A stretch of DNA of 35,310 bases, taken from the NCBI GenBank assembly GCA_018648405.1, contig JABGRF010000241.1, positions 1-35,310 of the forward strand, given 5' to 3'. Shown in pieces: positions 3,735-35,310 of this stretch (within the stretch, counting starts at the first letter, position 1; every line of letters begins with the position of its first letter). The DNA comes from Candidatus Scalindua sp. (GTDB lineage: Bacteria > Planctomycetota > Brocadiia > Brocadiales > Scalinduaceae). The notes below the pieces were generated by a model. That model was not told the origin of the DNA. It worked only from the letters and a program-made list of their open reading frames with translations, and did not search any database. Both the position numbers and the translations under genes were made by a program.

Positions 3735-5306
3735 TTAGTGTTCTTCACCAAAACAAGGATGATCGCCGTGATCACATGCATCTTCGACTATATCACCCTC
3801 TGTCCTCTTATAACCAGTAAGAAGATCAGTATACTCACCATGCTTCCAGAAATCGAAAGCCTTATGCTCTATACCAACCTCTTTTTCAAGAGTAGAAATT
3901 CTTCTTAACTTTGAAGCTTCATCCTTGATCTGGATAAGATGTCTGTCCATTGGGAACGCACCTGCATTGTAAGAAACGTCATCAATTGCGAAATGCGCTG
4001 CTGATTTGTATACAGCAGTTACCTGGTAAACAATCATCTCAACTGCAAGTCTTTCAATGTTTGATACATTGTAGAATCTTGGAGCACCACCTGGTAGTAA
4101 ATTCATCGTGTGACCACCAGTGTAGTCAGGTGCAAGGTCAGCCGGCATTGGATCAAACAAGCCTTCAAGATATAACCCAACAATAACGCCAACTGCTTCA
4201 CGCCATTTAGTGAAACTGACGTTAATCTGCTCATCCATACCATACATTTGCTCTGCAGCAAATCTAGGTGAGTGACAACCCTGACATTTCTTTATCCATG
4301 CATCCCTCTTAGCTTTATGCTGAGGTGCACCTCTGTCGAGCAGAAACATACCCATATGTGCATAATCAGTTGCCATATGCTGTACGTTGTGATTACCATC
4401 TTCACCTATATGACAGTACGCACATGTAGGAGTACGGTAATTCTTAGGAGTCATCTTCTTATCCCAATCCCAAGTATCACCTTCCATCATATAAATCTTA
4501 CCATGAAAAGAGTTGTACCAGAACTCATATTCAGCATGGTCTACACCCATGTGACATACACCACATGTATCTGGCTTTCTTGCTTCTGATGGTTTGAACT
4601 GATGCCTTGTATGACATCCGTCACATCTGTTTCCAGCAATACCATGACATTGAGCACAACTAGCAACTTCTTCCGCAGGTTTTCCAATTTGCCAAGCAAA
4701 TTCGGTAACTGATATATCCCAAATTGTGTGAGAGCCATGCGAACCCTGCCCACCAGCAAGATGTTCACTTTTTTCCTTTGCATGACACTTACCACAAGTG
4801 GTGACGCTAGGCATTATCAATTCCTGATGGTTGTTACCATGACATGCATCACATCCTACTACCTGTTCCGCATCCATCGAAGCTGTCTTTCCACCTTTTG
4901 AGTGCTGACTCAGTTTCCAGTCTACTACTATTCGTGGCGTCTGGATTGAATGACATAGAACACACTCTTCAGGCTTAAATACTCCCTCAACCTTTTGTGT
5001 TGATACATAGTAATCATCTGGATTATAGTACAATGCTGTTATAGGTAAGTAATTAAATATGTTTTTGAACTTACCCTCACCCGGAAATGTTCTATCTGGA
5101 CCAGTGTATCTAGCTGTCAAACCAAAGACATACATTGTTCCGTCATCATCATCTCCAACAGCCTGTCCATAAATTGATGATGCTACATCCTGAAACGTTG
5201 GTGCTGCATCATCAGCACTTGCATTTTTGCAGAAATTCATCGGCAAAAGAGCACAACCGGCAATGATTGCCAGCATCAACAAACAACCTTTTATTGATCG
5301 TATCAT
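3735..5306 (-). CDS. Octahaem hydroxylamine oxidoreductase-family protein
   Basis: A 523-residue exported multihaem protein of the HAO family, enzymes that oxidise hydroxylamine or hydrazine or, in some anammox paralogues, reduce nitrite. A signal peptide occupies residues 1-31 (cleavage near NASA/DD). Eight CXXCH motifs start at about residues 115, 152, 171, 217, 228, 248, 296 and 341. By position the fourth (CAQCH) would be the catalytic P460-type haem. The C-terminal helical part (360-480) normally supplies the Tyr that cross-links this haem. Here the segment SNIERLAVEM appears to have Ala where I would expect Tyr, so a reductive (nitrite-reducing) paralogue is possible. This is inference without an alignment. 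It has its own promoter, a long leader and a terminator, and lies between the hzs and trp/bc genes. I cannot assign the exact substrate. Confidence 0.92.
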   Translation of the reverse strand: MIRSIKGCLLMLAIIAGCALLPMNFCKNASADDAAPTFQDVASSIYGQAVGDDDDGTMYVFGLTARYTGPDRTFPGEGKFKNIFNYLPITALYYNPDDYYVSTQKVEGVFKPEECVLCHSIQTPRIVVDWKLSQHSKGGKTASMDAEQVVGCDACHGNNHQELIMPSVTTCGKCHAKEKSEHLAGGQGSHGSHTIWDISVTEFAWQIGKPAEEVASCAQCHGIAGNRCDGCHTRHQFKPSEARKPDTCGVCHMGVDHAEYEFWYNSFHGKIYMMEGDTWDWDKKMTPKNYRTPTCAYCHIGEDGNHNVQHMATDYAHMGMFLLDRGAPQHKAKRDAWIKKCQGCHSPRFAAEQMYGMDEQINVSFTKWREAVGVIVGLYLEGLFDPMPADLAPDYTGGHTMNLLPGGAPRFYNVSNIERLAVEMIVYQVTAVYKSAAHFAIDDVSYNAGAFPMDRHLIQIKDEASKLRRISTLEKEVGIEHKAFDFWKHGEYTDLLTGYKRTEGDIVEDACDHGDHPCFGEEH

Positions 5307-5634: not shown

Positions 5635-5678
5635 GCTCGAAAACGAGCATTTTTTAAGAATCTGAAACTAGATTCTTA
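5635..5678 (-). repeat. Two small hairpins at the hzsA 3' end
   Basis: A 9-bp perfect inverted repeat (TAAGAATCT and its complement, arms 5655-5663 and 5670-5678) includes the hzsA stop codon in its stem. A 5-bp GCTCG/CGAGC hairpin at 5635-5648 follows it. Neither has a U-tract on the minus strand. They may be 3'-end stabilising structures ahead of the true terminator. Confidence 0.5.
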
Positions 5679-8096
5679 TCTGCCACGATATCCTGGGTAT
5701 GGGTCAGGACCTTGAATGTTGTCCCATTGTGCGCCCAAATCTACCCACTCAACAAATAAGTATCTTTCTTCTGGTGTTAGCATGTTGTTATGCATAACCC
5801 TACCACCAACAGGTATAGGATTATTCCTTGCTGCGAACTGTGAAAGTTCTTCTTCATAAAGTCTCCAGATAAGAAGACTGTTTATTGCAGCACTTGGATT
5901 AACATACTTACCACCTATATTTGTGTCTCTACCCCTCTGAGGAGCTAAGAGACTGTTGTATGACTGACTGAATGCTGCAACGCCACCAACAGAAACCAAG
6001 CTTGTACTACCACTCAGATTAGGAGCCTGTGTAGAACTATGACAAGAAGCACATTTAGCATCTAAGATTGGCTGAATGTCTCTTCTGAAATCAACAGTTC
6101 TCAACTTGTCAATATTCAAACCTTCAACTGCTGCTGAAGTTGTACCTGAAGAACCACCATAATAAACATCATTAGGTACAACAACGTCATCACCATGTTT
6201 CACACCAGCATAATTACCATTCTTGTCAACTCTTAAGTTAGCCCACATAAATGGAGAATCATAATGGCTCAAATCACTGAACCACCAGTTGTAAAGCGCT
6301 TTTGTGTGAATGTTCAGATAACCCTTCTTATCATAAGAACCCCAGTGACAACCTGTACAAATCCTACCACCATATGGCCTTACATATGCCCATGATAGCT
6401 GAGTCTGTACTGCCATACCTTTGTCATCCAGAATCTGAGTGCAATATGCTTCATCACCTGGATGTGAACTTACAACAGAACCATCATCTTCTACATACTG
6501 ATAACCGAACATACGTCTCTGAGAGTAAGATGTTCCAGAGTTAGAACTTGACTTAGCACCACCAAGAAGGTGTGCACCAGCACCCTGAAGATATCTTTTA
6601 GAATCCGTCTCATTCGGCAGTACAGCATTTAGTACTCTGATAGCCTTGATGTCACCATGACCAACTTCTTTTGCCCTCTGATGTGCATAAGGACCAATTG
6701 GAAGATTTGTCAATGTTGTATCAAAGCATATTGTTGTACTCCATGAGTGAGGATATCCTTCAACTTTAACCTGGTCAAACGGCTGATAGGTTACAGTTGT
6801 TACACCAAACTCTGCTCCTGCTGTAAACGAGTTTATCCATCTTGGTTTGTAACGTGGATAAACAGGCTGAGGCTGATGATCATTCCATTCCGGATCATCG
6901 TATACCACTTCAGAAACAGTGCCCTTATCAGCACAGAAGTAGTAAAGACCAAAATCCTGTCTTTCAGCAGAAGACACCATTAGACGACCGTCTGGCAATG
7001 GATGAGGACTTCTATAAAGTCTTCCATCATTGCTCAACCTGGACTGTGTCTTAGCATGAGGAGTAGTCCAACTAACTCTTGCAAGATTACCTATGCCTGA
7101 GTTGTTGTCTAATGCCTCAATGTAATACACATATCCATCTGAAGCCTCTCTTGCCTGAATCTTAGGCGCATCTGGCTGCTCAGAAACCTCATTACCATAG
7201 ATATGCCTAGGATAAGAACCGTCCCAGTTATCTACAAGCAGGCATGTACTGCCGTTAGAGTTGTTATGAGTACCATTAGCTTGAGTACTACTGAACATGA
7301 TATTTCCGTCACGTGTGAGTGTTGGGTCAAAATTAGAACTTACATTGTAAGTAATCTTGTCCATAACAGTATCAACGTTAGGCATATCAAGTCCTACAAG
7401 CAAATGACCACAGATTCTATCCATTGACTTTCCACCCTGAGGGTCAAGTCTATAGATGTCAAAGTTGTAGTCTCTACCAAACTCATCCATTGAATTGTCA
7501 GGTGAATAAGCAAGCATCAAGAAACCCATCTTAGGAACTGTGCCACGAGGAGCCCAGTCACCTTCAAAATATCTAGCTCTTGATATAACTCTACCTTCAC
7601 CTTCTTCAATAGCACCAGCCGCATAGTAGATAGGACTTCTTGATGTACCAGGAGCATCAGTTAACTGCCTGACGCCTGTACCATCAATATTAACTTCCCA
7701 TATCTGACAACCACCACCATTTTTGTGAACACCTGCAAATGCAACCTTTGAACAATCCCAGTTAAGACAAGGATCAAAAGCACTCTGGAAGTCATTTGTT
7801 AGGACTTTCAGGCTTCTTGTCTTCGTGTTGTATGATACAATCCTGCTATCATTAGAAACATAATTTGGGTATTGATGATATGGATCGCCAGCAGTTGTAG
7901 GCTTTGACTGTGTGAACACAACAGTATCAACCTCTCCCTGAATCTCTTTTGCCATACCCCAGTAGTCGCCCCAAATAGCCTTACCAGGCTTAGCTCCACC
8001 TGTCATGACTTGAGCCTGGCAGTCTGCACTGCTAAAGAGCCCCCATATAGCAACAACACCAACCAGGGCAATTGACTTCAATAATCCCTTCTTCAT
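5676..8096 (-). CDS. hzsA: Hydrazine synthase alpha subunit
   Basis: Catalytic subunit of hydrazine synthase, which makes hydrazine from NO and ammonium in the anammoxosome. The 806 residues comprise a signal peptide (1-28), a propeller domain rich in TolB/PD40-like blades (about 60-450), a middle haem domain and a C-terminal cytochrome domain. The first haem motif is CTGCH (580-584) followed four residues later by Tyr588. In the Kuenenia structure, as I recall, the active-site haem alpha-I is ligated by a Tyr at exactly this spacing while the motif His binds zinc. The second motif is CASCH (682-686), and H769 in GGRVMHN is a candidate distal ligand. Length is close to the Kuenenia subunit. 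AGGAG lies 11 nt before the ATG. It is the last gene of the operon, 122 bp after hzsBC. Confidence 0.96.
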   Translation of the reverse strand: MKKGLLKSIALVGVVAIWGLFSSADCQAQVMTGGAKPGKAIWGDYWGMAKEIQGEVDTVVFTQSKPTTAGDPYHQYPNYVSNDSRIVSYNTKTRSLKVLTNDFQSAFDPCLNWDCSKVAFAGVHKNGGGCQIWEVNIDGTGVRQLTDAPGTSRSPIYYAAGAIEEGEGRVISRARYFEGDWAPRGTVPKMGFLMLAYSPDNSMDEFGRDYNFDIYRLDPQGGKSMDRICGHLLVGLDMPNVDTVMDKITYNVSSNFDPTLTRDGNIMFSSTQANGTHNNSNGSTCLLVDNWDGSYPRHIYGNEVSEQPDAPKIQAREASDGYVYYIEALDNNSGIGNLARVSWTTPHAKTQSRLSNDGRLYRSPHPLPDGRLMVSSAERQDFGLYYFCADKGTVSEVVYDDPEWNDHQPQPVYPRYKPRWINSFTAGAEFGVTTVTYQPFDQVKVEGYPHSWSTTICFDTTLTNLPIGPYAHQRAKEVGHGDIKAIRVLNAVLPNETDSKRYLQGAGAHLLGGAKSSSNSGTSYSQRRMFGYQYVEDDGSVVSSHPGDEAYCTQILDDKGMAVQTQLSWAYVRPYGGRICTGCHWGSYDKKGYLNIHTKALYNWWFSDLSHYDSPFMWANLRVDKNGNYAGVKHGDDVVVPNDVYYGGSSGTTSAAVEGLNIDKLRTVDFRRDIQPILDAKCASCHSSTQAPNLSGSTSLVSVGGVAAFSQSYNSLLAPQRGRDTNIGGKYVNPSAAINSLLIWRLYEEELSQFAARNNPIPVGGRVMHNNMLTPEERYLFVEWVDLGAQWDNIQGPDPYPGYRGR

Positions 8097-8218: not shown

Positions 8219-10291
8219 TTATAAAGCCTTCATAAACTCAACAAGATCCTGCAGATCCTGATTATTCAGATTAGATGTAACACCATGCATATCTAATGTT
8301 GTGCAAGTGTTATCAATCGTATTCATCAAAGTCTGCGCACTACCATCATGGAAATACGTACCAGAAGCGTAGATATCTCTTAATGTTGGAGTATCAAACT
8401 CTTTTACAAGATCAAGTCCAATAATTGGCACATCATACTCTTCACTGTAAGGTCCAACTCCAGTTTCTAGAACTGTAGTGTTAAACACAGCTCCCGGTGT
8501 TGTCCTGAAACCATCTTTACCAACTCTTCCGGTTCCAACATCATGAGTCTGAGCGTCACTGAACAATGCTCTTGGATTTTTAGGATCACCAGGATGACAC
8601 TCAATGCAACCAACCTTTGGATCACTAAATACTTTCCATCCTCTTTTCTGAGCTTCAGTCAATGAACCATCTTCTTCTCTGAAAGGACTTCCTGTAAACT
8701 CTAAAGATCTGATATAAGCAATCAAAGCCTCAAGTCTTTCAGGAGAGAAATTCTCACTTCTGAACACAAATCCAGGGTCACGACCACATACTCTGTCAAT
8801 CGAAGAAGCAGCTCCTACGATTTCATCAGGATGACCTGTGAATCCTTCATGCCTAAATGGAGGAAGGTATCTTCCACCTCTAATGTACTTAGTGTTCTTC
8901 CAGCTACCCCAACCTTCATCACCAAGGTCCCAGATCGTGCCTGTTGTCTGGCCTCTTTCATAGTGGCAACTTGCGCATGAATACTCACCCTGCAGTGTCC
9001 ATGATGCTTCGTTAAACAAAAACTGTCCATATCTCACCAATTCACTCTTATAAGGTGAGTGCTTTGCCCTGTAATGTACTTCAGGAACTGTAAGCGGCTC
9101 TCCTCTTTCGAGTGGCTCCCACTCAGGACCAGTCTGCATTGTTGCAATAACTGAAGGCTCATCACCTACCTGAATAAAAGACAAACTGTTTGAGAAATAG
9201 TTTGCAGTGTACATAGTCTTACCATCCGGTGAAAGAGCAACTGAACTAGGGCCTAGACCCACATTAACTCTTGCTACCAGATAATCAATCATCAATGTCA
9301 GGTCATTCTTCATGTCATCAAGCTCTTCTTGAGTGCTTGAAACAACGATGTCCAACAACTTTGGCAGATCAAGGATTGTTATCCTGTGCATACTTCTAAC
9401 ACCAACAAAAGCATATTTTCCGTCAGGAGAAACAGTTACTCCGTATGGATTTCCATCATAATTGTTATGCTCATCTAAAGGCATACTTGCAACCTTACCG
9501 CCTCTTTTAGTCTCTACAACAGCGAGGTTGTTAGAGAATATCTGAGCATTTTCAGCTTCACAAACAGGAAGCCAGTTCTTTGGCTGTTCCATTGTGACAA
9601 GTACATATGCTCCATCAGGCGTGTACTCTACACCCCTCAGGTTACAACTCTGATAGATATTTCTGTGCTCAGTAACCCTACCAGTTGAAAGATCTACAAA
9701 ATCTACGCCTCTGTTGATCTTACCAGTTGTATCCAGGACAACTGCAGCAGATTTTCCATCAGGAGAAATTGCTATGTCCCTTGGACCATAATCAGTAGTT
9801 CTGATTTCGCCAATCTTGCTGTTCATTGCGGTGTCAATAATATCAACAGTGTTCCACATACTACCTGAACAACAAACATATGCCTTAGAACCGTCTTTAG
9901 ACAATTTAATACTACATGGCCAATCACCAACCTTTATTGTCTTTACAACAGCCTTATTGCCTACGTCAATGACTGACACGGTATCACTTTCAGCGTTACA
10001 AACGAACAAAGTGCGACCGTCCAATGTATAAACACTGGCTTCCGGCTGTACCTGTACAGGCACTTCACCAGTCACTTTTTTGGACCTAACATCAACAAAC
10101 GACACGCTGTGTCCCGACTGATTGCATAAAGCCAACTCGCTACCATCAGGCGAAACTGCTACGTGGAATGGGGATGGATGCTCAGTCCTTACCCTTGTGC
10201 CCTGTATAAAGCCAGCACCAGCACTTTGAACCAGCGCTAAGCTTAGCATTCCCGCACCCAGGAATCCCAATATCCAAGCCTTTTTCTTCAT
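8219..10291 (-). CDS. hzsBC: Hydrazine synthase fused beta-gamma subunit
   Basis: A 690-residue fusion of the non-catalytic beta propeller and the dihaem gamma subunit of hydrazine synthase. Gamma is thought to reduce NO to hydroxylamine, which passes to HzsA. A signal peptide covers residues 1-26. Residues about 35-380 carry YVTN-type propeller blades with recurring SPDG turns (VAVSPDG, IAISPDG, VTVSPDG, VALSPDG). Residues about 400-690 resemble MauG/bacterial cytochrome c peroxidase, with haem motifs CASCH (439-443) and CIECH (562-566) and the family signature TLRDI..GTYFHDGSAQTL (about 636-655). In Kuenenia these are two genes, whereas fusion is known from Scalindua. A strong TGGAGGTG site lies 5 nt before the ATG. 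It lies upstream of hzsA and downstream of the Cys-rich gene by 51 bp. Confidence 0.96.
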   Translation of the reverse strand: MKKKAWILGFLGAGMLSLALVQSAGAGFIQGTRVRTEHPSPFHVAVSPDGSELALCNQSGHSVSFVDVRSKKVTGEVPVQVQPEASVYTLDGRTLFVCNAESDTVSVIDVGNKAVVKTIKVGDWPCSIKLSKDGSKAYVCCSGSMWNTVDIIDTAMNSKIGEIRTTDYGPRDIAISPDGKSAAVVLDTTGKINRGVDFVDLSTGRVTEHRNIYQSCNLRGVEYTPDGAYVLVTMEQPKNWLPVCEAENAQIFSNNLAVVETKRGGKVASMPLDEHNNYDGNPYGVTVSPDGKYAFVGVRSMHRITILDLPKLLDIVVSSTQEELDDMKNDLTLMIDYLVARVNVGLGPSSVALSPDGKTMYTANYFSNSLSFIQVGDEPSVIATMQTGPEWEPLERGEPLTVPEVHYRAKHSPYKSELVRYGQFLFNEASWTLQGEYSCASCHYERGQTTGTIWDLGDEGWGSWKNTKYIRGGRYLPPFRHEGFTGHPDEIVGAASSIDRVCGRDPGFVFRSENFSPERLEALIAYIRSLEFTGSPFREEDGSLTEAQKRGWKVFSDPKVGCIECHPGDPKNPRALFSDAQTHDVGTGRVGKDGFRTTPGAVFNTTVLETGVGPYSEEYDVPIIGLDLVKEFDTPTLRDIYASGTYFHDGSAQTLMNTIDNTCTTLDMHGVTSNLNNQDLQDLVEFMKAL

Positions 10292-11182: not shown

Positions 11183-12571
11183 TTAATTTTGAGCATATTT
11201 CTCAAGCCGATATCTGAACGTCCCTCTGCTGAGACCCAGCAATTTAGCAGCCTTAGTTTTATTATTCTTGCTTTTTTTCAAAGCCTGCAAAACCAAGTGT
11301 TTTTCCAGCTCATCTATAGATATTCCTTCAGGTGGCAAATTAAAATTCACCATTTTATATGCATTGTCTTTTTCGCTTCGATAACCAGAAATTGATTCTC
11401 TTACTAAAGTAACAGGAAGATGATCCTCCGTCACCATGCTTCCTTTGCACAAGATCACAGCTCTTTCCATGCAGTTTCGTAATTCCCTTACGTTACCATC
11501 CCACCTGCTTGACACGAGCAGGTTTTCAACGTTCTTTGTCATTTTCAGCGACAACTTTCCCATTTTTTCAGAAAACTGCGCAACAAAGTTTCGTGCTAAC
11601 TGCAAAATATCCTCAGGTCTTTCCCTTAGAGGCGGTATTTTTATAGGAAATACATTTACTCTATAATACAAGTCTTCCCTAAATTGACCCTTCTTAACAT
11701 AATCCTCAAGGTTTTTATTACTGGCACAGATGATTCTAACGTCAACCTTTACCGTTTCAGATCCCCCAAGCCTCTCTAATTCCCGTGCTTCAATTAGTCT
11801 CAGCACTTTGGCCTGAACAATAGGATTCATCTCTGATATTTCATCGAGAAACAGCGTACCGCCATGGGCCATTTCAAAGCGACCCTTCTTGGATTTCTCT
11901 GCTCCTGTAAAGGCACCCTTTTCATAGCCGAATAACTCGCTTTCCAGCAGTGTCTCAGGCAAGGCAGCACAGTTAATCGAAACTAACGGCCCACCCTTCC
12001 TTAAACTATTGAAGTGGATTGCTCTCGCTACAAGCTCTTTCCCGGTGCCACTTTCTCCGTAAACAAACACGGTTGAATCCGTTCTGGAAACATCTCCAGC
12101 CAACAAAAGAACTTCCAATATCTTAGGAGAGTTACCTATAATGTTACCAAAATTATAATGCGACTCTAATTCCTTTCGAAGATATCGATTTTCCATTGCA
12201 AGAGATCTCATCTTCAGTGCTTTTTCCACTGCAACTGAAAGCGATTCACCCTCAAATGGCCTTACGATATAATCAAAGGCACCCTCTTTCATCGACTCCA
12301 CCGCAGTCTCAATGGAATCATCCCCGGTTACAACAATAACCGGCAACTCGGAATCCATTGATTTAATCTGCTTAAGGAATTCCAATCTGCCCATTTTCGG
12401 CACTCTCAGATCAGTAATAATCAAGTGCAGTTTTTCGCGCTCAACAAAATCAACTATCGATGTCAGGTCTTGAGCCTTAACAACCTCGATATTATCCATC
12501 TTATCGAACATAACCTTGACGTTGCGTATTATTCGCTCTTCATCATCAGTTATCAACACCCTACTAACCAC
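11183..12571 (-). CDS. Sigma54-dependent response regulator (NtrC family)
   Basis: A 462-residue activator with three domains. The receiver (1-120) has acidic pocket D9/D10 and phospho-acceptor D54. The AAA+ domain (about 140-380) has Walker A GESGTGKE (172-179), the sigma54-contact loop GAFTGA (219-224) and Walker B LFLDEI (240-245). A Fis-type helix-turn-helix lies at the end ([19 protein letters not shown]). The receiver's normally invariant Lys before Pro is Arg here (R104 in YIVRPF), which may change phosphorylation kinetics. The start is GTG at 12571 with GAGGA about 9 nt upstream. It is 42 bp after the cytochrome b gene, so probably in that operon, and is followed by the sigma54 promoter of the hzs genes, its likely target. 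No cognate kinase is adjacent. Confidence 0.95.
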
Positions 12572-12613
12572 TATGGAGTATCCTCAAAAACAAGACAAAA
12601 ATCACATAAATTT

Positions 12614-13522
12614 TCAAAAAGCAAATATACTAAATATATCAATATTGAGATCTTTGATTAAATCCATAAAGAGTGACGCAAGAGAGCATATCACAGATGA
12701 CAGCATAAATCCCACCATAAGCAAACCAATAGTAAGAAGAGGCACACCCATCATTCTGGATACAAATTTTGCCATTGGAGATGACGGTTTAACCCTTAAA
12801 CCCTCTAACTGACCCTCTTCCTTCATCCTCTCATAGTAAGCACCTCTTTCATGCTTTACATGAGCCTCATCAATCTTACCCGTAAACATCGCCTCATCGG
12901 TAGGCATATTCTCAGGCAGCATGTGTGTATGGAGGAAATGAATTGAAAAGATAAATCCTGCAGCTAACAATGCTTCGTATCTATGTGCAACCAGAGCGAT
13001 ACTTGGTAAATCAATGTAGCTTGCAACGCTGACGGGTACAAGCCTCGTGGCTTGCACTGGAAACCAAAGAATATAACCTGTAACCGCCATAACCAATGTT
13101 CCCCACATAAGCGACAGATATTCAAATTTTTCCCAATATATAAATCTTTCAAACTTTGGTCGTTTACCCAGCCTGAAAAACCACAAGATATCTCCTAGTA
13201 TGTGCAACACATCCTTCGGTTGTATCAATAGAGAATCGGGCCCCCAGAACATGCCCCTATCTTTCTTTATTAGAGACTCGTAGGCCAGATACGCAAAGTG
13301 CAAAAAGGCTGCTACAAAAGTGAGGAGCGCACAAAGCCTATGAATATTACCAGCGGCAGGATAGCCACCCATAGCACCATACAACCACTGACCCCAAGCA
13401 TAGTCCTTGAACACCAAAGGCATACCGGTTAACACTAACCCGAAAAAACTTATAATTGTGAAAGTATGGCCAAGTCGATGAAACTTGCCAAACCGTAGTA
13501 ATGTTGTAGTATTATCAGCCAT
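12614..13522 (-). CDS. Membrane dihaem cytochrome b of the hzs electron-transfer module
   Basis: A 302-residue integral membrane protein resembling the cytochrome b subunits of formate dehydrogenase, Ni/Fe hydrogenase and thiosulfate reductase, which exchange electrons with quinones. I see about five hydrophobic segments (about 20-37, 60-82, 140-155, 178-198 and 258-285). Candidate b-haem ligands are H15/H19, H61, H75, H180 and H195/H198/H200. It overlaps the upstream multihaem cytochrome gene by 8 bp, which implies translational coupling and a complex. In Kuenenia a cytochrome b and multihaem c pair at this place upstream of hydrazine synthase is proposed to deliver electrons from quinol for NO reduction. 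I apply that role here by synteny. Confidence 0.85.
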   Translation of the reverse strand: MADNTTTLLRFGKFHRLGHTFTIISFFGLVLTGMPLVFKDYAWGQWLYGAMGGYPAAGNIHRLCALLTFVAAFLHFAYLAYESLIKKDRGMFWGPDSLLIQPKDVLHILGDILWFFRLGKRPKFERFIYWEKFEYLSLMWGTLVMAVTGYILWFPVQATRLVPVSVASYIDLPSIALVAHRYEALLAAGFIFSIHFLHTHMLPENMPTDEAMFTGKIDEAHVKHERGAYYERMKEEGQLEGLRVKPSSPMAKFVSRMMGVPLLTIGLLMVGFMLSSVICSLASLFMDLIKDLNIDIFSIFAF

Positions 13523-14522
13523 GATCAGATTTATTCTCCTTTCGATCGTCTAATATTGAGCCCAGCCATGATAAAAGCATATGCGTACCGAACTGCGCAA
13601 ATGTTACCACCAAAAGGCCAACATACGCCACGAAAAGAACGGTTAATAATGTCTGCGGACTCTTTACGATACTCTTGATTTCCGCAGGATCTTTTCTGAT
13701 ATTTTTTAAAGCTATCAACGCCGATTTATAATAACCAACGTCTTTGTAAGCCGGATGCGCAACATGCTTAACAAAACTGTTGCCAGCGCCTGGATGACAC
13801 TTACCACAGGTTTCCTTCGCCTTTTCCGGACCTAATGTAGATTCAGGATCTGCTGAATTGAGAATAGTATGCTGCCCGTGACAATCGACACACGTCGCTA
13901 TATCCAAGCCTACATACCCCATTGCAGTAACCTGACCATGTAGATTATTACGATAAGAACGGTAGTATTTTTCATGACAACCTCCGCATTTTTCTATCGT
14001 ATCCCCTCTGTGCTCCAGGTTATCAGCCCGAGGTGTATTCATCTTAGATTTCTGTCCCGTGTGGCAATACTTACAAGTAGGTAGCTGTACACCTTTTTCC
14101 TGCATCAGGCTTGCATGACTACCTTCCAGGAATGTTGCGGCCGGATCATCGTGACAGAATGTTACACAATCTACCGGTTGTAAATTTGGATAGTGCTCTC
14201 CTTCAGAATCTTCCAGATCAGAATGACAATCGATACAGTAGAAGTCCTCACCACCGTGAGCAGATGCATGGTACTCTTCTTCATCCACAACCATTGTCAC
14301 AATCTCCACTTCGCCAGTGACATGGTCTACCCTGACCTTGGATGCTACCTCTGCCGGATCTGCATGACACTCCATACAGTCACTATTCTCTTGAGCAAAG
14401 AGGCTATTTGATGAAAAAGAAGAAATGAAAATAAGACATGAGATAAAGCATGAAATGATTACAAGCTTACATATTTTACTATCTTTAAATACTTCTGTCG
14501 TTGTTTTTGACAATGATACCAC
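13515..14522 (-). CDS. Membrane-anchored multihaem cytochrome c of the hzs electron-transfer module
   Basis: A 335-residue cytochrome with a signal sequence (about 18-43) and a C-terminal membrane helix (about 292-314), so the haem domain lies outside the membrane face and is anchored next to the cytochrome b. Canonical haem motifs are CMECH (49), CIDCH (96), CKYCH (150), CGGCH (179), CVDCH (211) and CGKCH (239). A seventh, CVTFCH (119-124), has three residues between the Cys. With that CX3CH site counted the protein would be heptahaem. The start is GTG at 14522 with GGAG 8 nt upstream. It overlaps the next gene by 8 bp. The likely role is passing electrons from the cytochrome b to hydrazine synthase or its carrier, inferred from context. 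Confidence 0.88.
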   Translation of the reverse strand: MVSLSKTTTEVFKDSKICKLVIISCFISCLIFISSFSSNSLFAQENSDCMECHADPAEVASKVRVDHVTGEVEIVTMVVDEEEYHASAHGGEDFYCIDCHSDLEDSEGEHYPNLQPVDCVTFCHDDPAATFLEGSHASLMQEKGVQLPTCKYCHTGQKSKMNTPRADNLEHRGDTIEKCGGCHEKYYRSYRNNLHGQVTAMGYVGLDIATCVDCHGQHTILNSADPESTLGPEKAKETCGKCHPGAGNSFVKHVAHPAYKDVGYYKSALIALKNIRKDPAEIKSIVKSPQTLLTVLFVAYVGLLVVTFAQFGTHMLLSWLGSILDDRKENKSDHG

Positions 14523-14595
14523 TTTATGATCTCCTCCTCTTGATTGAAAGAAAGATAGTACTTTTATACAGTGGGATAAACTTTCACTATAGCTG

Positions 14596-14624
14596 ATTAT
14601 CTTCTATTTAAGTAGAGCGCACAA
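14596..14624 (-). promoter_or_regulatory. Weak candidate promoter of the electron-transfer-module operon
   Basis: On the minus strand GATAAT (14596-14601) lies 17 bp after TTGTGC (14619-14624). The -10 matches consensus at five of six positions but the -35 only at three. It is the best candidate I see before the GTG at 14522. Confidence 0.3.
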
Positions 14625-14630
14625 TACAAC

Positions 14631-14664
14631 CGTCTCCCCTCCTCTTAAGCAAGGAGGGGAGACG
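14631..14664. repeat. Perfect 13-bp GC-rich inverted repeat
   Basis: CGTCTCCCCTCCT (14631-14643) and its exact complement (14652-14664) enclose an 8-nt loop containing CTTAAG. Neither strand has a T-run after the stem. It separates the c554-like gene from the electron-transfer-module operon and may be a terminator without U-tract, or a protected 3' end. Confidence 0.7.
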
Positions 14665-14751
14665 AAAAACATCTTACTACCATTATTTTTAAAGCGACTA
14701 GCACGAATCATCTATTTACAAGCTGATTCTCAAAGAAACAAATCCATTACA

Positions 14752-15492
14752 CTACTTAGCATTTGGAGGCTTTGTTTTGTACCATGGATCCAGCTCTACA
14801 TAGCCCTTCCATTTCTTTGCGTCCGGCTTAACATCATCAATGCCATCATGGTCCCTGTGATCGTCTCTCTTAATGTAATCCTTTGTAAAGAGCCTTTCTT
14901 GACCTTTGCTATTTTTCGTACCTTCACACTTAGGACACTTGTTTTTTGAACCTGCATCTTCCCAGTGGCAAGTAAGGCATTGTTTTTTTATCGTCTTGTA
15001 CTTATTTATGCCGGCTACTAATAGACCTGCGTCGTATTGAGCTTTTCTGGCAGCCATAGGATCTTTTTTCAACAACTTCTTAAATGCGTCTTTGCCCTTA
15101 CCACCAAGGTTCTTCTTAGCCTTTATATAACCCTCTCCAGGGCCATGGCATGCTTCACAACCAACGTTTTCAATAAAGTCCTTTGTACCCTGCTTGGACT
15201 TACCCTTCTTTATCTTCATGCCCAACGCTGTAGCATGACATTTTAAACACTCAGGATTACTCTTGTCTTCATCAGTTTTCAACCTGCTGAAAGTGTTATA
15301 ATGCTGATTCTTCATCTTCTTATATTCTTCACCTTCAAAACAGCCTTTAGACATATGGCACTTACAGCCACCATTACCCATATATTTCCACTTCTGCTTA
15401 CCGGCAAAACTCTGGCTACATTGAAAGACTACAAGCGACAATGATATAGCTACGAATGTCAAAACACATCTTCTTAAATTACGGCCAAACAT
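14752..15492 (-). CDS. Cytochrome c554-like tetrahaem protein with an unusual haem motif
   Basis: A 246-residue exported cytochrome (signal peptide about 1-31) of the c554 type, recognised from the N-terminal pattern of first haem site followed by a GEEYKKMKNQHYNTF stretch. Three canonical motifs are present: CLKCH (82-86), CEACH (112-116) and CLTCH (172-176). The first site is CKCH (43-46), with only one residue between the Cys. A later CPKC (186-189) lacks His. The rest is very Lys-rich, suggesting an acidic redox partner. It has its own sigma70-type promoter and lies upstream of the hzs regulatory and electron-transfer genes, so it may be a small carrier in hydrazine metabolism. This is inference. 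Confidence 0.85.
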   Translation of the reverse strand: MFGRNLRRCVLTFVAISLSLVVFQCSQSFAGKQKWKYMGNGGCKCHMSKGCFEGEEYKKMKNQHYNTFSRLKTDEDKSNPECLKCHATALGMKIKKGKSKQGTKDFIENVGCEACHGPGEGYIKAKKNLGGKGKDAFKKLLKKDPMAARKAQYDAGLLVAGINKYKTIKKQCLTCHWEDAGSKNKCPKCEGTKNSKGQERLFTKDYIKRDDHRDHDGIDDVKPDAKKWKGYVELDPWYKTKPPNAK

Positions 15493-32632: not shown

Positions 32633-32893
32633 TTATCTCTGCCTTATATATTTAAAACGCAATATAATAATGAATATACTGAATGCTAATCCAGCCGCAT
32701 TGGCCACAATAATTATCATGTCTTCAATATGTATGCCGTAGGACAACCAACATGAAAGGCCAACTATAAGGAGCATGTACATTACTGGAGAGATATCATC
32801 CAATCTCTTTGTACGTATGCCTCTTATTATCTGCGGAATAAAGCCTGAAGTCGTACATATTGCGGCAATTATTCCTACAATTTTCCACTCCAT
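32633..32893 (-). CDS. SemiSWEET/PQ-loop small membrane transporter
   Basis: An 86-residue protein with three membrane helices (about 4-20, 36-54 and 60-80) and a PQ-loop motif in the first (TSGFIPQIIRGIRTK), the hallmark of bacterial SemiSWEET sugar transporters, which work as dimers. The length is exactly that of the family. The start ATG at 32893 has GGAGGAGG close upstream. The terminator of the preceding NO-reductase-like gene ends only 40 bp before this start, leaving little room for a promoter. Substrate is unknown. Confidence 0.9.
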   Translation of the reverse strand: MEWKIVGIIAAICTTSGFIPQIIRGIRTKRLDDISPVMYMLLIVGLSCWLSYGIHIEDMIIIVANAAGLAFSIFIIILRFKYIRQR

Positions 32894-33001: not shown

Positions 33002-35310
33002 CTATGCTACCTGTATGTCACACTCCGGCAACTCTTCTTTTGTAAGAACCGACTCCTCTGGACTATGCTCTGTCGCAGCAGCCTTGAGTGAGTTAAGTCG
33101 GGATATCATAAAGTAGAGTAGAGGCACCACACCGGCAAAAAAGAGCACACCACCCACCGCACGCATCCACGTCAACACCTGGAAAGTACCGCCAAGAATA
33201 AATTCCTGCGAGCGGGCTACCCAATAGCCATTTTCAACAACCGACTTGAATTGTAACACTCCGGCAGGGAATGTATCCATCACCACCATCAGCAGGAGTC
33301 CCACGTTAATCGCCCAGAAGGTAGAGCGCAGAAGCCTTACGTTCCAGCGCCTGGCGGTTATAACATGTCGGCTGCAAAACAGAACTGCCGCTATCGAAAG
33401 GTTACCGTAAACGCCCATCAAAGCCGCGTGACCGTGATTGACAGTTAGGTAGGTACCATGTTCATAATAATTTATTATCGGAAGGTTTATAATCAAGCCA
33501 AATACACCTGCACCGAAAAAGTTCCAGAAATTTACGGCAATAAGGAACAGAAATGCCTCTGAGAATCCGAATGATGATCCTGTTACGGCTGAATTTGTTG
33601 AACGACTAAATGAATATCCCGGCACCCGTACAAACTTCCAGACTTCGAGCGTCAGCAGTACAAGTGGAATAACCTGGAGTGTTGAGAAAACGCTTCCCAT
33701 AGCCATAAGAGCGGCAGGCTTTGCATTCCAGTAAAAGTTGTGAGAAATACCCAACAGGCCTGAGCCTAGAAACAGCAGTGTCGCCAGATAGATCACCCTG
33801 ATCGCACCCTGCCGTGAAACCAAACCCATGAGAACCATATAGCAGGCAATAATCATTGTTGTAAATACCTCAAAAAAGCACTCTGCCCACATGTGAATAA
33901 CGCACCAGCGCCAGAAATCGGCAATGACGAAATTGGTATTCTTCCCGCCCACAAAGCTTGACAAGAACAGAATTGTAATAGCCACAACAGAGTATAGAAT
34001 CCAATATGGTAATGAGAATGCTGATTGTCCCTTCAAAGCCGGTTTTACCCCGCGATATATAATCACGGACCACATAACAAGTGCCGCAAAGAGAACAACC
34101 TGCCACAATTTACCAAGCTCAACAAATTCCCAACCCTGGTTGCCAAGTAACCTCCAATGATCACCAAGCAGGTTCTTTGGCCCCAGGAAACATCCTACGA
34201 ACATACCAACAACAACTGAAACCAGCAAGCCGAAGAGTATGTTGATAAGGAGTACCTGACGCTTCGGCTCCTGCCTGTAAATTCCGGGAAGAATAAAGAT
34301 GGAACCAGCTATCCAGCAGGTCGCTATCCATAGAATAGATAACTGTACATGCCAGCTACGCGTAATAGTTATCTGCAAAAGTTCAGAAATGTTATAGCCG
34401 AAGAAAGTTGTAAATCCGACAAAATCGTGAATCGTCAAGACACCGGCCACTATCTGTATGAAAAACAGTGAAACCGCAACCACAAAAAACTTGTATGTTG
34501 CACGTTGACTAGCTGTTGGAGCTGATGCATCAACACTCTTATTATCAACAGGGTTTTCACTGACCTGTAACTGCGAGGACTTGGAATAGTAACTATAAGT
34601 ACAGAGAACCGCACCCAGACCGAATATCAGAAATAGCATTCCGATAACGCTCCATAGTATTACTGACGGTGTCGGAGTGTTCCCGGCGTACTCATCAAAT
34701 GGCCAGTTATGGGTATAACTGGATTCACCTCCGGGCCTTTCCACCGCACAAACCCACGCACCCCAGAAGAAAAAGGCCGAAAGGTCTTTAAGTTCAGCAT
34801 CGTCTGTAATATAACCTGCTGGTTTAAAAGCCTCCTTGTGATCTCCCTTGAATTTTGAACTATAGTATTCCGTCAGACGTTCTGCTGCATACGCCTGCCC
34901 CTCAGTAAGCATTACGATATTTTTCTCTCTGTCATAACGATTCGCTTTGAGTTCACGCTTCACCCTGACAGAGATACCATCTTTCTCTATTTGAGATAAC
35001 TCATCCGTATTACCACTTGTAACCTGATTGCCATAAAAATCGTTCATCTCAACTGCAACCTGGTGGAGTGCTTCAGCGGTAAAATCCGGCCCACGGGCAG
35101 CACCATCCCCGAACATGCTTCCGTATTCCATCAAAGCATATCTCTGGAAGATCAGCTGTCCACGTTCCACGGCACTCTTTTGAACAATTTCTTCCCCTGA
35201 AGGTGAAACATAATCAGGTTTTGGAGGCGCATCTTTGTACGTACTGAAACCCATAAATATAACACCGGATGCACCTACAACCAGAACAGCAAGTAAATAT
35301 TTCCACCAAT
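33002..35310 (-). CDS. Quinol NO reductase-like protein with NO dismutase-type active site, 5' partial
   Basis: At least 768 residues, open to the window edge; the first in-frame ATG at 35254 is internal because an upstream helix (WWKYLLAVLVVGASGVIF) belongs to the protein. Numbering below is from that ATG. The N-terminal extracytoplasmic domain and the FFFWGAWVCAVERPG signature are those of quinol-type NorZ. About a dozen helices follow. Haem ligands are present: H302 (SWHVQL), H607 and H609 (NHGHAALMGVYG), and H454 with E458 (HMWAEC). However, the FeB di-His motif is H505-N506 (ISHNFYW), the Glu of FSxLE is Gln (Q527), and the quinol-site Glu and Asp appear replaced (H276..G280; RAVGG near 698-702). 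These changes are those described for NO dismutases. The function is NO detoxification or 2 NO to N2 plus O2. Confidence 0.85.
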   Translation of the reverse strand, partial: WWKYLLAVLVVGASGVIFMGFSTYKDAPPKPDYVSPSGEEIVQKSAVERGQLIFQRYALMEYGSMFGDGAARGPDFTAEALHQVAVEMNDFYGNQVTSGNTDELSQIEKDGISVRVKRELKANRYDREKNIVMLTEGQAYAAERLTEYYSSKFKGDHKEAFKPAGYITDDAELKDLSAFFFWGAWVCAVERPGGESSYTHNWPFDEYAGNTPTPSVILWSVIGMLFLIFGLGAVLCTYSYYSKSSQLQVSENPVDNKSVDASAPTASQRATYKFFVVAVSLFFIQIVAGVLTIHDFVGFTTFFGYNISELLQITITRSWHVQLSILWIATCWIAGSIFILPGIYRQEPKRQVLLINILFGLLVSVVVGMFVGCFLGPKNLLGDHWRLLGNQGWEFVELGKLWQVVLFAALVMWSVIIYRGVKPALKGQSAFSLPYWILYSVVAITILFLSSFVGGKNTNFVIADFWRWCVIHMWAECFFEVFTTMIIACYMVLMGLVSRQGAIRVIYLATLLFLGSGLLGISHNFYWNAKPAALMAMGSVFSTLQVIPLVLLTLEVWKFVRVPGYSFSRSTNSAVTGSSFGFSEAFLFLIAVNFWNFFGAGVFGLIINLPIINYYEHGTYLTVNHGHAALMGVYGNLSIAAVLFCSRHVITARRWNVRLLRSTFWAINVGLLLMVVMDTFPAGVLQFKSVVENGYWVARSQEFILGGTFQVLTWMRAVGGVLFFAGVVPLLYFMISRLNSLKAAATEHSPEESVLTKEELPECDIQVA

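Follow-up and report, generated by a model that had tools for sequence, protein, structure and literature searches.

A qNOR-type gene on a hydrazine synthase contig

The window analysed here, a stretch of 35,310 nucleotides, is an entire contig (C108) of a Candidatus Scalindua metagenome-assembled genome (MAG) comprising 2.57 Mb in 406 contigs and 78% complete. The minus strand carries, at positions 33002-35308, a nod-like gene for a qNOR-type membrane protein of the putative NO dismutase (Nod) family, present in a single copy in its own genome. Open-frame analysis revealed one uninterrupted frame of 768 codons followed by the stop, truncated by the contig end, so that about five N-terminal residues are absent (the orthologues begin MKSTNWWKYLL). 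Pfam places a NorB cytochrome c-like domain (PF22085, E 1e-47) at residues 33-203, together with a COX1 domain (PF00115, E 2e-46), and the translated frame has no CxxCH motif, leaving a cytochrome c-like domain without haem c. The closest solved structure is the qNOR of Geobacillus stearothermophilus (3AYF, E 1e-168), which is also the top PDB match (TM 0.87/0.89) to the AlphaFold2 model of the protein (pLDDT 81, pTM 0.84). As expected of a Nod, the protein combines the qNOR fold and an additional N-terminal helix with a cytochrome c-like domain that has no haem c, and the domains and the best solved relative bear out the sequence-only reading of this DNA, which had assigned the protein to the qNOR type.

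Directly downstream of nod, a small PQ-loop/SWEET-type membrane protein (32633-32893, minus strand; Pfam) is kept in several, not all, Scalindua loci. The same contig encodes, also on the minus strand, the hydrazine synthase beta-gamma fusion hzsBC (8219-10291; NF052342, 1609 bits) and the alpha subunit hzsA of this NO-using enzyme (5676-8096; NF052339, 1609 bits). Fused hzsBC has been seen in Scalindua (PMC10732223), and the presence of hzsA and the fusion on the nod contig identifies the host as a Scalindua-type anammox bacterium, in line with the earlier attribution to an anammox genome. That reading had also placed nod next to the hydrazine enzymes; they do lie on the same contig, but at distances of about 23 kb (hzsBC) and about 25 kb (hzsA). 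Two further regions accompany the hydrazine genes. A HAO/HDH-like multihaem protein adjoins hzsA (3735-5306) and, at 401 bits against the hydrazine dehydrogenase cut-off of 900, is a paralogue. The region beyond hzsBC (11183-15492), possibly an electron-transfer module for hydrazine synthesis, encodes a sigma-54 response regulator and a multihaem cytochrome, together with proteins resembling cytochrome b561 and cytochrome c554.

The base composition of nod (GC 45.8%, GC3 0.46, compared with about 40% and 0.31 nearby) and its position at the contig end are what one would see if binning or assembly had joined a foreign Nod gene to an anammox contig. However, nod, the MoxR/DUF58 genes and hzsBC follow one another in the same order, at 82-89% DNA identity, in a contig of Scalindua SI037_bin72, an independent assembly of a second species, and about 20 kb on the nod side of this arrangement is the same in a third. 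Moreover, the orthologues in 8 of the 12 other genomes have the same high GC3. The collinearity in two other species rules out the contig-joining artefact, an explanation to which we give almost no credence, and since the gene order is common to other species, nod is part of the Scalindua chromosome. A mobile origin was likewise discarded: phage records gave no match, the plasmid matches listed were below 40% identity, and the six of these examined were canonical. Partial qNOR-like proteins with 39% identity are also present on two IMG/VR contigs that are listed as viral.

Active-site and quinol-site residues

Residues are numbered here according to the Geobacillus qNOR 3AYF. The haem histidines 355, 651 and 653 are retained in the window protein, as are the first FeB ligand H508 (His472, codon 33893-33895), the FeB glutamate E512 (Glu476, 33881-33883) and the second FeB ligand H559 (His523, 33740-33742; all codons on the minus strand, from the residue table). 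The adjacent FeB ligand H560 is replaced by Asn in ISHNFYW (Asn524, 33737-33739), the catalytic glutamate E581 by Gln in FSTLQ (Gln545, 33674-33676), and the quinol-binding D746 by Gly, RAVPD becoming RAVGG (Gly720, 33149-33151). In the quinol-site loop (34415-34429, minus strand) the HxxxE motif reads HDFVG, with H328 kept and E332 changed to Gly; the back-translated primer nod1012R falls at the same place. The full set at the 3AYF sites is therefore H328, G332, F336, H508, E512, H559, N560, Q581 and G746. All four replacements had been proposed from the letters of the window, and the alignment to 3AYF recovers each of them; the aligned columns show no conservation of the replaced FeB histidine, glutamate and quinol residues. 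Note that the quinol site is changed at two of the four positions checked (E332 and D746), whereas H328 and F336 are kept, as is also common among many other members of the Nod-like clade.

These changes occur together. Among 124 homologues scored, all 100 rows with N560 also have Q581 and lack both E332 and D746, and all 24 rows with H560 have E581 and D746 and are canonical qNORs, so that N560 marks the Nod-like clade (N in 100/100 Nod-like rows, H in 24/24 canonical). The window, with N, Q and G, does not have the canonical combination H560, E581 and D746. H328 is present in 60 of the 100 N560 rows and therefore lies outside the diagnostic set; further marks of the clade are D90 for H, M509 for L and A565 for G. 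Part of the homologue set was collected with a pattern containing HNFYWN, which biases it toward N560, but a scan of planctomycetes without this pattern gave the same N560/H560 split. The altered residues are identical in every aligned Scalindua orthologue, and dN/dS of the orthologues against the window is 0.06-0.14, indicative of purifying selection; chance or sequencing error is thereby excluded.

Phylogenetic position

In trees of 75 and 39 rows, all N560/Q581 proteins form one clade (support 100/100) apart from canonical qNOR. The Scalindua set is nested among Planctomycetota, with Pseudomonadota, Acidobacteriota and Melainabacteria as neighbours, and the clade also includes several Bacteroidota lineages, among them Muricauda sp. 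TMED12. Forcing the Scalindua set to group with canonical qNOR in the 39-row tree lowered lnL by 28.6 and was rejected (AU p 0.0035). A canonical NorZ identity is thus ruled out by the residues and by the tree, which places the gene outside the quinol-oxidising NorZ proteins. On sequence grounds, the protein belongs to the putative Nod clade of membrane enzymes derived from qNOR, which it represents in Scalindua; the suspicion that it is a Nod-like variant of qNOR holds for both the shared residue set and the position in the N560/Q581 clade. Membership of the putative family is as firmly established as sequence allows with a tree anchored for putative Nod on Muricauda sp. TMED12 and many Bacteroidota, instead of on the DAMO references.

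Elsewhere in the phylum, one family (f28; five loci) forms a deep N560/Q581 subclade at 46% identity, and several of its genomes have an additional second Nod-like gene (about 63%).

Distribution, selection and neighbourhood

Orthologues of nod at 80-95% identity are present in 8 of the 12 other Scalindua genomes, the closest named relatives being Candidatus Scalindua MAGs at 94% (L020), 90% (L021) and 80% (L022). A relative at 50% identity is found in both genomes (n=2) of genus g2, which belongs to the same family as Scalindua. This gene comes from another part of the Nod clade and has also lost H328, which suggests a second, separate acquisition within the family. The search found no nod in family f4, the large sister family within the order, whose genomes we infer to be of the Brocadia/Kuenenia type. 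GC3 of the Scalindua orthologues is 0.44-0.51, compared with about 0.31-0.34 in most window neighbours, consistent with an ancient transfer or with codon selection.

Neighbourhoods of nod vary between Scalindua species, and the search for an operon joining it to an O2-using partner found none beside the gene. In one Scalindua genome (L020) the upstream gene (706-2529) resembles one for a flavodiiron protein; its product actually joins an ODP-family domain to a GGDEF diguanylate cyclase, possibly making it an O2- or NO-sensing c-di-GMP protein, and the gene is not conserved beside nod.

Upstream of nod, six Scalindua genomes share the element TTGAAC-TTACATA-nnn-TATGTGA-TAA (TTGAACTTACATAnnnTATGTGATAA), which is promoter-like in sequence and would be of the sigma-70-like type, its spacer containing a palindrome. 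At one mismatch or fewer, the element occurs essentially only near nod in 13 genomes; the window's own copy would fall past the contig end. Searches upstream of nod in the relatives for FNR/DNR, NsrR, NorR and sigma-54 sites gave no consistent match.

Relation to known enzymes and previous reports

The same residue changes define the putative Nods described by Ettwig in 2012 (PMC3413370), namely DAMO_2434/2437 of Methylomirabilis oxyfera and the proteins of HdN1 and Muricauda, and the change from H to N has been applied to Nod as a diagnostic (PMC13386854). These proteins and that of Scalindua have in common the qNOR fold without haem c, H560N, E581Q and the lost quinol-site residues, and the clade of the Scalindua protein also holds that of Muricauda sp. 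TMED12, whose genus includes one of the original putative Nod hosts. They differ in that the Scalindua gene occurs singly instead of as a pair and belongs to an anammox planctomycete, and no methane or alkane oxygenase was seen next to it. The comparison with Methylomirabilis was made through published nod primers, back-translated by hand. The NC10-specific primer nod1012R encodes DF(I/V)GGGP, matching the Scalindua HDFVG with Gly at 332, and the NC10 primer sites match the Scalindua protein at DF(I/V)G and FYWxAKP. Against the window, primer nod684Fv2 has one mismatch and nod1706Rv2, which encodes FYWIAKP where the window has FYWNAKP, has three; general nod primers may therefore miss the Scalindua gene.

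Canonical qNORs (G. stearothermophilus 3AYF, Alcaligenes, Cupriavidus necator) have the fold (TM about 0.87), the haem ligands, H508, E512 and H559 in common with the window protein at 30-37% identity. In contrast, the window protein has H560, E581, E332 and D746 all replaced, and the canonical qNORs form a separate clade.

A one-sentence mention in the literature (PMC10359470) assigns nod to two MAGs of Candidatus Scalindua from oxygen-deficient zones, the same genus and gene class as here; that mention comes with no analysis of the gene's residues, tree position, synteny or promoter. A nod 95% identical to that of the window over 604 amino acids occurs in Arabian9_MAG_63, which, judging from its name, probably belongs to that data set. 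In Candidatus Scalindua profunda, qNor scal02135 was annotated as a quinol-oxidising NO reductase (PMC3655542); this qNOR-type protein of the same genus, compared by its description, is a probable orthologue. An Arabian Sea study assigned 40% of norB/norZ reads to Scalindua and found no NC10 nod (PMC4830246), and these reads may represent the gene described here. The presence of nod in Scalindua is thus not fully new; what is new is the residue proof, the conservation across the genus, the linkage to hzs and the nod-specific promoter element. Our literature search covered open-licence papers, and fuller descriptions may exist.

Possible functions of the Scalindua protein

The best explanation, in our view, is that the protein dismutes NO, a proposal drawn from sequence features to which we assign about an even chance. 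In support of this, the qNOR fold and the haem b/b3 ligands are kept while H560, E581, E332 and D746 are replaced jointly, as in every clade member examined. The position in the fully supported N560/Q581 clade, the DF(I/V)G encoded by the NC10 primer, the conservation of the gene in the genus, its own promoter-like element, and the cbb3 genes of the same genome with their response to substrate in Scalindua cultures also speak for it. In the proposed mechanism, the altered quinol site would prevent electron uptake from quinol, so that NO could be disposed of without an external electron donor, and two NO would be converted to N2 and O2 at the haem b3/FeB site. The enzyme would act as an overflow valve for nitrite-derived NO left unconsumed by hydrazine synthase, and the cbb3 oxidase of the same genome, or flavodiiron proteins, would remove the resulting O2. 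On the other side, the retained H328 is possibly compatible with a partial quinol site, the co-occurrence of nod and cbb3 is not strict, some genomes having one only, and nod has no O2-using gene beside it and a neighbourhood that differs within the genus. No Nod has been purified to date, and conflicting results have been reported (PMC13386854).

The protein could still be an NO reductase (2 NO + 2 e- -> N2O) that detoxifies NO with electrons from a c-type cytochrome, another donor, or quinol through the changed site. We rate this as a real possibility, at something like one chance in three. An ocean study argued that NO reduction may still be the role of Nod-like genes, given that they track the N2O maximum in a Pacific oxygen-deficient zone (PMC5723336), and the qNor of S. 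profunda was interpreted as an NO detoxifier (PMC3655542). The protein retains the fold and the haem ligands as well as E512 and two FeB histidines, and our search of the genus found no canonical qNOR that would do the same job. However, all 100 clade members have lost the catalytic Glu together with the Asp and Glu of the quinol site, and no conserved partner cytochrome adjoins nod. An NO- or O2-binding protein without turnover, serving as a sensor, sink or scaffold, would account for the changed active site, and the conserved promoter element of its own suggests dedicated regulation. Yet the protein has no extra signalling domain, the complete enzyme fold would be superfluous in a sink, and the active-site residues are strictly kept in the clade under strong purifying selection across the protein, which makes this role improbable.

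As for the physiology around NO dismutation, the MAG encodes a cbb3 oxidase, with a ccoP-like gene located after a fused ccoNO; a search of the same MAG (78% complete) for cytochrome cd1 (nirS) gave nothing above the cut-off. In a Scalindua culture, cbb3 genes were strongly expressed and responsive to substrate even without O2, NO was formed from nitrite alone, and the electron balance did not close (PMC13253579). The text of that paper has no match for 'nod' or 'qNor'; we infer that the physiology it describes is connected to the Scalindua nod. Two other loci of the window's genome (contigs C43 and C179) encode NnrS/COX1-like membrane proteins joined to DUF1858, one of them also to ScdA_N, and other genomes of the genus repeatedly show weak COX1 matches of similar length; such proteins could be NO-related haem proteins.

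Implications for marine anammox bacteria

Scalindua is the main marine anammox genus. If its Nod makes O2, a supposed obligate anaerobe would have an O2 source of its own, and Scalindua would be able to form N2 from nitrite by another path in addition to that through hydrazine. Such a source would also give a reason for a constantly expressed oxidase and for the substrate-driven expression of cbb3 in O2-free cultures. Since Scalindua enrichment cultures exist, the function of Nod is directly testable. For the oceans, nod genes and transcripts in oxygen-deficient zones could then not be taken as a sign of methane oxidation by NC10 bacteria; if the Scalindua protein makes N2O instead, marine anammox would be a possible source of N2O.
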